A stretch of 64,000 bases of DNA from Streptomyces hygroscopicus (GTDB lineage: Bacteria > Actinomycetota > Actinomycetes > Streptomycetales > Streptomycetaceae). The DNA lies in assembly GCA_002021875.1 (NCBI GenBank), contig CP018627.1, positions 4,402,001 through 4,466,000 of the forward strand. The letters run 5' to 3'. Of the stretch, positions 28,785 through 31,511 are shown piece by piece. Made by a program: the position numbers and the translations under genes. The notes under the pieces were generated by a model. That model made no database searches. It was not told the origin of the DNA and saw only the letters and a list, made by a program, of their open reading frames with translations. Each line of letters starts with the position of its first letter. Positions within the stretch are counted from its first letter, which is position 1.

Positions 28785-29369
28785 CTACTGAGGGGCCGGG
28801 GTGGACTGCGCGGAGGCGGAGGAGGTTGTGGAGAGGGCGGTGGGCAGCCCCCACGGGGCCACGGAGGCCGTGCCCGTGCCCGCCCCGGACGGGGTGGTGG
28901 TCGGCGGCGCGACGGCGGACGGGGTGGGCGATGCCCCGGACCGGGCGGGCGACGCCTGGGACAGCGTGGGGTCGAGCGCGGACGGCAGCACCGGGCCGGG
29001 GGCGCCGAGCACCGAGGGCTGCCCCGAGGCGGGGGCGGGCACCCCGCTGACCGTGCCGTCCGGGTTGAGGAAGGCGGGGCTGCCGCCGGGCACCATCCCC
29101 AGCTCCCGGGCGCGCCGCTCCAGCGCGGTGGGCGCGGAGAGCTGGTCGACGTCCTGCTGGAGCGCCTGGCGTTCGTCAGTGAGTTCCCCGGTCTGCTTCT
29201 CGAGCCTGCTGAGCTCGAACGACCCCTGGTTGAGGGAGGAGTTCAACAGCAGCAGCGCGATCAGGCCGGAGCCGAGCAGGACCACGACGAGCAGCACGAA
29301 GGGCGTGCGCCTGGCCGTGGCACCCCCCGGCACCGGCCGGCCTTTCGGCCCTGTCCCCCTCGTGCTCAT
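28785..29369 (-). CDS. ftsL: FtsL-type septum formation protein
   Basis: A 194-residue bitopic protein: basic N-terminus, one membrane helix ([19 protein letters not shown]), a short coiled coil ([24 protein letters not shown]) with the RARELGMVP motif, and then a long Pro/Ser/Thr/Ala-rich extracellular tail of about 80 residues. FtsL with DivIC/FtsB and FtsQ activates FtsW-FtsI. Its ATG overlaps the rsmH stop (ATGA). The disordered tail is longer than in E. coli or Bacillus FtsL. Confidence 0.9.
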
Positions 29370-30328
29370 GGACCGACCTCTTCCCGGATGCGCTCCGCCC
29401 CCCGGAACCGGGCCGGGGCGGCCCGCCGGTTCTCGGCGATCTCCTCCTCGGTGGGCAGCTCCGCGCCGCGGGTGAGCAGCTTCAGCCGGGGCTGGTACTG
29501 CTCGGGGACGACCGGCAGCCCGGGCGGCGCCGTATTGCGGGCACCGGCCACGAACACCTGCTTGACCAGGCGGTCTTCCAGCGAGTGATACGAGAGCACG
29601 GCGATCCGCCCGCCGACCGCGAGCGTCCCGACGGCCGCCGGAATGGCCCGCTCCAGGACCGCGAGCTCGCCATTGACCTCGATCCGCAGCGCCTGGAAGG
29701 TGCGCTTGGCCGGATTGCCGCCGGTGCGCTTGGCGGCCTGCGGGAGCGCCGCGCGGATCAGCTCGACGAGCCGGGCGCTGTTGGTGAACGGCTCCTTGGC
29801 GCGCTCGCGCACCACGGCGTCCACGATCTTCTTGGCGAACTTCTCCTCGCCGTAGGCCCGCAGGATGCGCACCAGCTCGCCCGGCGGATAGGTGTTGAGC
29901 ACCTCCGCCGCGCTGACGCCGGTGGTCTGGTCCATCCGCATGTCCAGCGGGGCGTCCTGGGCGTAGGCGAAACCGCGCTCGGCCTCGTCCAGCTGCATGG
30001 AGGACACGCCGAGGTCGAAGAGGATCCCCTGGACGCGCGGGACGCCGAGCCGGTCGAGGACCTCGGGCAGCTCGTCGTAGACCGCGTGGACCAGCGTGGC
30101 CCGATCGCCGTACGGGGCGAGCCGCTCACCGGCGAGTCGCAGCGCGGACGGGTCGCGGTCGAGCGCGATGAGGCGGACCTCGGGGAAGTCGCGCAACAGC
30201 GCCTCGCTGTGGCCACCGAGGCCCAGGGTGCAGTCGACCACGACCGCGCCGGGCCGGGCGAGAGCGGGGGCCAGCATGTCCAGGCAGCGCTGGAGCATGA
30301 CGGGAACGTGGAGAGCGTTGCTGCTCAT
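29366..30328 (-). CDS. rsmH: RsmH (MraW), 16S rRNA m4C1402 methyltransferase
   Basis: A 320-residue SAM-dependent methyltransferase for C1402 of 16S r[16 protein letters not shown], the SAM loop [34 protein letters not shown] and [16 protein letters not shown] are intact. It is the first gene of the dcw cluster. ATG at 30328 was chosen because the family begins with this HxPVML context; the upstream 100 codons are open but unlike any protein. Confidence 0.95.
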
Positions 30329-30518
30329 TGCGCTGCTGGTGCGCCCTTCTGAGGATCGGGCGAGGATGGTACGCACCTCCGGGTCCCCGCCCGCTCTGAA
30401 GGGGAAGTGGCCTACTGGCGCCGGGGAAGTGACGTCAGGCGACCGGAGCGGGAGGAGGCCGAGGGGTACGTACGCACCGCGCTCACGCGAAATTCCGGGA
30501 TCCGAGGGGAGCGTCACG

Positions 30519-30550
30519 CCTCCCACTTCGCGCCACTTTAGTCCACTCGT
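30519..30550 (-). promoter_or_regulatory. Three 10-bp-phased AGTGG repeats (MraZ-operator-like)
   Basis: Read on the minus strand, GAGTGG, AAGTGG and AAGTGG occur at 30543-30548, 30533-30538 and 30523-30528, spaced exactly 10 bp. This matches the layout of MraZ operators (GTGGG or AAAGTG repeats every 10 bp). They overlap the -10 of the probable rsmH promoter. Confidence 0.6.
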
Positions 30551-30562
30551 CCCTTCGGTCAA
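30535..30562 (-). promoter_or_regulatory. Probable dcw (rsmH) promoter
   Basis: On the minus strand TTGACC (30562-30557) is followed after 16 bp by TAAAGT (30540-30535), a near-consensus vegetative promoter for Streptomyces. Transcription would begin near 30528, giving a leader of about 200 nt for rsmH. Confidence 0.6.
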
Positions 30563-30736
30563 CCAACCGGTCAGCGCGTCCCGCCCCGGGGGTGGCACAC
30601 CTCCCCCAGACACCACACCGAGGGGCACAGGGTGCTGTGGGTTGCCTCACATCACCCGCTCGGCCCACCCCGTTGCCCTCGTTTGCCCTACCTAAAGAAA
30701 AGACAAAATCCGCTGGTGAGAGGTAACGTCGTCATC

Positions 30737-31291
30737 ATGTCGATATCAGCGCCGCAGCCGAATCCGTCCGCCGACCGCGACGCCCGTACGGGAGACACGG
30801 TCACCGACCGCCTCGTGGAGGCCAACCGCAAGTACGCCGAGAAGTTCACCGACCCCGGAATGGACGCGCGCCCCGTGCAGCGCGTCGCCGTCGTCGCATG
30901 CATGGACGCCCGTCTGGACCTGCACGAGGCACTCGGCCTGGAGCTGGGTGACTGCCACACCATCCGCAACGCGGGTGGTGTGGTCACCGACGACATCATC
31001 CGGTCCCTGACCATCAGCCAGCGCGCGCTCGGGACCCGCAGCGTCGTGCTCATCCATCACACCGGCTGCGGTCTGCTGAACCTCACCGAGGACTTCCGGC
31101 ATGAGCTGGAGGAGGAGGTGGGCCAGCGTCCGTCGTGGGCGGTCGAGGCGTTCAAGGACCTCGACGCCGATGTCCGCCAGTCGATGCAGCGGGTGCGCAC
31201 CTCGCCGTTCCTGGTGCACACCGACGACGTCCGCGGCTTCATCTTCGATGTGACGACGGGTCTGCTGCGGGAGGTCACGCCGCGCACGTGA
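30737..31291 (+). CDS. Beta-class carbonic anhydrase
   Basis: A 184-residue zinc enzyme interconverting CO2 and bicarbonate. Zinc ligands are in ACMDARLD (Cys, with the Asp-Arg dyad) and HHTGCG (His and Cys), and GDCHTIRNAGG is a family motif. It is short compared with plant-type beta-CAs and resembles the small actinobacterial group. ATG at 30737; the frame upstream is open but lacks support. Divergent from the dcw cluster. Confidence 0.9.
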   Translation: MSISAPQPNPSADRDARTGDTVTDRLVEANRKYAEKFTDPGMDARPVQRVAVVACMDARLDLHEALGLELGDCHTIRNAGGVVTDDIIRSLTISQRALGTRSVVLIHHTGCGLLNLTEDFRHELEEEVGQRPSWAVEAFKDLDADVRQSMQRVRTSPFLVHTDDVRGFIFDVTTGLLREVTPRT

Positions 31292-31346
31292 GGGATGCTG
31301 ACGCCACTGAAGGGATTCAGCACCCGAACTCGTACAAGCGTGACAA

Positions 31347-31366
31347 ATAACCCCGGGTTATCCACA
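31347..31366 (+). promoter_or_regulatory. Palindrome overlapping a DnaA-box-like site
   Basis: ATAACCC-C-GGGTTAT (31347-31361) is a perfect inverted repeat, and its right arm runs into TTATCCACA (31358-31366), identical to the classical DnaA box. It lies about 145 bp upstream of the moxR-type gene. A single box is weak evidence of DnaA binding. Confidence 0.4.
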
Positions 31367-31511
31367 GCCGAGTGACGCGAGGCCGCGGAGACCGCAAGAA
31401 TGCATAGGTGACATCGTCCCCCGCAACCACGCGGGGGACCGATGTCAGCGTTTGCGGTGGGCCGGTCCGTTCCGAGGGCAACGGCCCTGAGAACGGGCCG
31501 AGGAGGGCCGG

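Follow-up and report, generated by a model that had tools for sequence, protein, structure and literature searches.

Streptomyces is a main model for cell division during sporulation, and few regulators that head the division (dcw) cluster are as widespread as MraZ. In Escherichia coli, the operator of MraZ reportedly consists of tandem repeats with a GTG core that recur with a 10-bp period over the promoter heading the cluster. The corresponding site in Mollicutes is given in a passage of one study as (AAAGTGK N3)3 (PMC5282649), while that of Burkholderia cenocepacia is described, in a section of another, as four repeats of 7 nt, separated by 3-nt spacers, at the transcription start (PMC7761207). 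A repressor role was assigned by the authors to MraZ of Mycoplasma genitalium (PMC8475190). According to parts of a study on Neisseriaceae, mraZ was lost in the multicellular longitudinally dividing members, with lower dcw expression alongside, and its deletion in N. elongata lowers the dcw genes (PMC9395523); MraZ therefore acts positively in this family. Its loss from several Mollicutes, including most acholeplasmas, is stated in a portion of a further study (PMC5138195).

In the present study, we analyzed a stretch of 64,000 nucleotides from Streptomyces hygroscopicus (the window), in which the promoter preceding rsmH shares with the MraZ operators of Mollicutes, B. cenocepacia, and E. coli the tandem GTG-core repeats, the 10-bp period, and the position over a promoter at the head of the cluster. 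It differs from them in that no mraZ is detectable in the genome, one of four boxes has been lost, and rsmH follows directly.

The rsmH promoter and its repeats

The features of the locus, all on the minus strand, are as follows.

30563..30583, minus, conserved block directly upstream of the -35, consensus GCGC-GGCCGGTTGA (Streptomyces alignment)
30557..30562, minus, -35 hexamer TTGACC of the rsmH (former mraZ) promoter; commonest base at 0.90-1.00 per position among the distinct sequences of 83 Streptomyces genomes
30553..30556, minus, position of box 0, lost, GAAG here and GTGG in relatives with mraZ (columns -9 to -6 of the alignment)
30543..30547, minus, box 1, AGTGG, within the promoter spacer (pattern match)
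30535..30540, minus, -10 hexamer TAAAGT (promoter scan)
30533..30537, minus, box 2, AGTGG, overlapping the end of the -10 (pattern match)
30523..30527, minus, box 3, AGTGG, at the predicted transcription start (pattern match)
30507..30524, minus, hairpin GGGAG...CTCCC predicted for the transcript 5' end (fold prediction); shared with some mraZ-carrying relatives and absent from some folded genomes
30361..30477, minus, mraW RNA motif (RF01746) in the rsmH leader (44.1 bits, E 2e-7, full model length)
29366..30328, minus, rsmH (mraW), the first gene behind the promoter (PF01795, E 6e-113)

The segment AGTGGACTAAAGTGGCGCGAAGTGG (minus strand, 30547-30523) contains three exact copies of AGTGG spaced by 10 bp over a sigma-70-type promoter, and a preliminary description of this DNA was accordingly right about both the repeats and their spacing. 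When up to two mismatches were allowed, AGTGG-N5-AGTGG-N5-AGTGG matched once in the whole window, with none of the mismatches used; 0.10 matches are expected by chance at this tolerance, and at least one was found in 9 of 100 window shuffles. One further triple-AGTGG site, with one mismatch, is present in the rest of the genome, and the backwards pattern, used as a control, likewise matched once. The overlap of the repeats with the -10 of a promoter TTGACC-16-TAAAGT (30562-30535, minus), also described previously, was borne out: this predicted rsmH promoter has the two hexamers and the 16-18-nt spacer of the sigma-70/HrdB type, and it was the sole match of its kind in 29500-31500 (shuffle mean 0.0). 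Judging from the spacing, transcription would start near 30528. The divergent carbonic anhydrase gene starts at 30737 and rsmH at 30328, and the intervening gap of 408 nt, which the preliminary description had found to be devoid of mraZ, gave no match to PF02381 (MraZ) at E<=10.

Homology to the mraZ promoter of relatives

The region preceding mraZ was compared in 60 loci, 30 from the class and 30 from the family, and scored on the 15 box positions. A score of 12-15 was obtained in 59 of them, with at least 13 in 58, versus a maximum of 12 in 1200 block shuffles; the sixtieth locus (L108), which was taken in the wrong frame, scored 9. Family members that carry mraZ commonly show TTGAC[C/G]GTGGGG....GTGGAGTAAAGTGGCGCGAAGTGG, in which four GTGG boxes stand 10 bp apart and the first directly follows the -35. 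In six of these relatives, the promoter before mraZ is identical to that of the window at 23-24 of 25 bases (one or two differences). The likeness to an MraZ operator noted in the preliminary description thus reflects real homology, the same promoter preceding mraZ in relatives.

The -35, the -10, boxes 1-3, and the spacers are the same in the window as in the mraZ promoter of Actinacidiphila rubida, Streptantibioticus parmotrematis, and other mraZ-carrying members of the family, and the mraW RNA and rsmH also lie downstream in those inspected or scanned. However, box 0 and mraZ, retained by all these members, are missing in the window, which has three boxes and GAAG in the place of the fourth. 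The leader is arranged in the six relatives as operator, 5'UTR, mraZ (435 nt), an intergenic region with the mraW RNA, and rsmH, and in the window as operator, short 5' end, mraW RNA, and rsmH; when aligned by eye, the window leader follows the relatives through the mraZ 5' region, skips the 435-nt mraZ, and resumes in the intergenic region between mraZ and rsmH. The window carries this promoter joined to the leader of rsmH, and both mraZ and box 0 have been lost.

Conservation of the boxes with and without mraZ

Boxes were counted in 45 of the 47 mraZ-carrying family genomes, in 83 Streptomyces genomes, and in 10 other genomes without mraZ, with nine g115 genomes and one g111 genome left out due to unreliable placement of the element in eight of these ten. 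Column frequencies refer to distinct sequences only, in an ungapped alignment anchored on the element. GTGG was intact in boxes 0, 1, 2, and 3 in 45, 45, 45, and 34 of the mraZ-carrying genomes, in 0, 73, 16, and 19 of the Streptomyces genomes, and in 0, 10, 1, and 0 of the other mraZ-less genomes, respectively. When the mraZ-less genomes were pooled, box 0 was intact in 0/93 and box 1 in 83/93, boxes 2 and 3 were mostly decayed, and the -10 was largely kept. Box 2 ends in G in all sequences with mraZ, while its last base is A in 81% of the distinct sequences from Streptomyces and in 90% of the second set without mraZ; the CGC that follows box 2 is invariant in Streptomyces and occurs at 0.70-1.00 in the other set.

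Upstream of rsmH, the element, which has the form GTGGACTAAAGTG[A/G]CGCGAAG in most genomes, was present in 58 of the 58 Streptomyces genomes in which rsmH was found, among 61 searched; its likeness to the 25-mer of the window was 18-25 of 25 bases in 56 of them, 17 in one, and 16 in one. The exact triple AGTGG occurs in 8 of 83 Streptomyces genomes, including the window, and hence is not genus-wide. The preliminary description had made its reading depend on conservation of the repeats in close relatives, which holds in part: within Streptomyces, strong conservation is seen in the GTGG of box 1, the AGTG of box 2, and the promoter but not in the A of box 1, the final G of box 2, or the end of box 3, which vary. 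When changes were counted on an RsmH tree of 55 Streptomyces genomes, none fell in columns 11-13 and 15-17, 0-2 in each of columns 1-8, seven in column 14, 2-8 in each column of box 3, and 7-19 in the spacer columns -8 to 0. For a test of whether boxes 2 and 3 decay together on independent branches, the supported branches yielded only two pairs, which gives no power.

Named contigs were scanned with a pattern in which box 1 and most of box 2 were fixed and box 0, box 3, and the last base of box 2 were free, and mraZ was recognized by a short motif. Among the matches listed (at least 119 named contigs with the element), rsmH lay 120-823 bp downstream in 115, and none was present in the locus for four. 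Among these listed 115 contigs, the three with mraZ have all four boxes, while the 112 without it have box 0 in none and GTGG in boxes 1-3 in 27. In two of the nine g115 genomes, which are without mraZ (L170 and L177), the best site has TTGACT upstream and GTGG[A/G]CGATAGT, with the GTGG of box 1 beside an altered -10.

Origin of the element

Based on these comparisons, we consider it highly probable that the element is the old mraZ promoter-operator as it stands after the deletion of mraZ, with MraZ control gone and the bases that served MraZ alone drifting. Among the options raised in the preliminary description, that of a relic is the best supported, by the tree, the box decay pattern, and the box counts, and on the best reading the orphaned operator would now be conserved mainly as a promoter, which appears to be still in use for the cell-division genes.

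The ancestor, similar to the sister genera, would have carried, before mraZ, the mraW RNA, and rsmH, a row of four GTGG boxes that spanned the promoter from its -35 to the start at 10-bp intervals, and its MraZ presumably bound these boxes and controlled its own operon, as suggested by work on MraZ elsewhere. On the stem of Streptomyces, a deletion may then have removed the DNA that begins with the mraZ ribosome-binding site and stops just short of the mraW RNA, so that the promoter and 5' end now lead straight into the mraW RNA leader and rsmH. Once the loss of mraZ had ended MraZ control, the bases that served MraZ only (box 0, the last G of box 2, and the end of box 3) would have been free to drift, and those also serving transcription (the GTGG of box 1, the -10, and the CGC after the -10) would have been kept. 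The three whole boxes of this lineage may still be present because decay is incomplete.

Some findings count against this reading. Boxes 1-3 are exact in the window and in 7 of 82 other Streptomyces genomes, and in both groups without mraZ the conservation of the box 1 GTGG comes close to that of the -10. Since this is stricter than a plain relic predicts, something may still read box 1; its GTGG presumably serves either transcription itself or another protein. As a tentative proposal, possible but short of probable, box 1 (GTGG, at approximately -18 to -15 relative to the predicted start) and the CGC that follows the -10 may be read by a family-wide factor other than MraZ, either through an undescribed core-promoter contact of the actinomycete RNA polymerase with its partners or as the site of a successor division-gene regulator in Streptomyces. 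If so, the promoter, once free of MraZ, would have re-tuned itself in separate mraZ-less lineages by a parallel shift of box 2 from AGTGG to AGTGA.

The lineage-specific loss of mraZ proposed for Streptomyces has counterparts in Neisseriaceae and Mollicutes, and in the former it was also from the head of a dcw cluster that was kept; a left-over operator, as proposed for the window, is not described in the passages on either loss (PMC9395523, PMC5138195). A narrow literature search, with most subscription journals outside its range, met no published statement on the loss of mraZ in Streptomyces. This loss, together with the remaining operator, would constitute a natural experiment in which promoters with and without the regulator may be compared and the bases of MraZ separated one by one from those of the promoter, and it raises the testable question of what, if anything, now controls rsmH, ftsL, and ftsI in Streptomyces.

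A possible successor regulator

A different regulator may have taken over part of the site after the loss of mraZ, reading GTGG-N6-AGTG-N1-CGC, perhaps with the upstream block, and controlling rsmH and the division genes. The 0-2 changes in columns 1-8, 11-13, and 15-17 of the 55-genome tree, versus 7-19 in the spacer columns, are consistent with this, as is the conserved block before the -35, which is prominent in Streptomyces and could be the site of a new or successor regulator; it stands out relative to the mraZ-carrying genera in an ungapped comparison of one genus with ten. Since the mraZ promoter of the actinomycete Dietzia is bound by MtrA (PMC9602371), this protein is one candidate, and a non-orthologous successor was proposed, in a section on Mollicutes, where MraZ was lost (PMC5138195). 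However, the 10-bp repeat has not been retained, the last G of box 2 being gone in most genomes and box 3 decaying, and the kept bases cluster at the -10, as expected for contacts of RNA polymerase. Neither motif clearly recurs elsewhere: the 14-mer CCGGTTGRTTGACC from the upstream block gave 34 matches in 61 genomes (32 genomes hit), of which 32 were at rsmH and two elsewhere. We consider a takeover of this kind unlikely.

Search for MraZ

The preliminary description had also offered a distant mraZ as an explanation, in which case MraZ encoded elsewhere in the genome would still bind the operator. A PF02381 profile search of the 12.0-Mb one-contig genome, including the rsmH gap, gave no match at E<=10, a setting at which 12 of 14 control genomes matched, seven of them above the cut-off. 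The only support comes from 150 Streptomyces genomes, 48 of which gave matches at E<=0.01, 22 of these above the cut-off; however, all were of at most 26 bits over approximately half of the profile, and the 10 loci inspected (L089-L098) all encode an ABC-transporter ATPase with a C-terminal MraZ/AbrB-like half domain as its tail, which accounts for the weak signal there. The remaining 38 cover a similar half of the profile. A distant mraZ is therefore extremely improbable, and we rejected it for this genome.

In a sample of the class, a MraZ match was found in 263 of 295 genomes and 101 of 102 genera; since two of these matches are weak and in Streptomyces, genuine MraZ seems to be absent from Streptomyces and one further genus. 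In the family sample, mraZ was present in 47 of 121 genomes and 10 of 17 genera. The assignment of the window's genus to Streptomyces is borne out by 200-base pieces taken from six of its genomes, each of which recurs in named Streptomyces records, including S. rimosus and S. thermodiastaticus. The record Streptomyces sp. DvalAA-14 has mraZ and four boxes, and its promoter groups with those of mraZ-carrying genera in the promoter comparison; the loss therefore tracks the genus as defined from genomes, not every use of the name Streptomyces.

That chance alone produced the repeats in a GC-rich promoter, to which the 9 of 100 matching shuffles and the frequent matches of the backwards control pattern in 61 Streptomyces genomes might point, has a negligible probability given that the 25-mer, including its spacers, is common to the mraZ promoters of sister genera and that 59 of 60 mraZ loci exceed or equal the shuffled maximum of the box score.

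Number of losses

A tree of 40 genomes was constructed from RpoB, RpoC, and RsmH, with RsmH lacking for three genomes and RpoC for one. Streptomyces (17 genomes, support 100/99) is nested in genera with mraZ, the branches being at bootstrap values of 98-100, and two further mraZ-less groups branch below it, such that genomes without mraZ fall into more than one lineage. Forcing all of them into one clade was rejected (p 4.35e-88), as was a single loss on this basis, although both are compatible with RsmH alone, for which a single mraZ-less clade was not rejected (p 0.316). Constraining the eight mraZ-less genomes outside Streptomyces together gave p 0.00675. Because the 40-genome tree rejects one mraZ-less clade, mraZ was probably lost at least twice. 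The states of mraZ on this tree require three changes, which losses combined with a regain could also yield; losses are likelier than a regain, and the counts alone do not discriminate between these.

The rsmH leader and minor observations

The mraW RNA motif is listed as observed in RNA-seq of Corynebacterium glutamicum (PMC3890552). The window resembles RF01746 in its full-length match and its location upstream of mraW/rsmH, which is the same in relatives, while its score of 44.1 bits is under the curated cut-off of 50. In a scan of 20 loci, RF01746 matched at E<=0.01 in 15, two of which exceed the cut-off.

The DxKGR motif of MraZ reads DxK[S/N/H/C]R in many mraZ-carrying genomes of the family (L129-L158), with G kept in g103 and g106; this change is possibly a sign of an altered function that predated the losses. 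Between rsmH and the carbonic anhydrase gene, a near-palindrome, TGTGGGTTGCCTCACA, is located at 30636-30651, which we take to resemble a CRP-type site. Among Streptomyces genomes, 65 of 77 contain TGTG-N8-CACA no more than approximately 200 nt upstream of box 1; among genomes with mraZ, 23 of 45 do.
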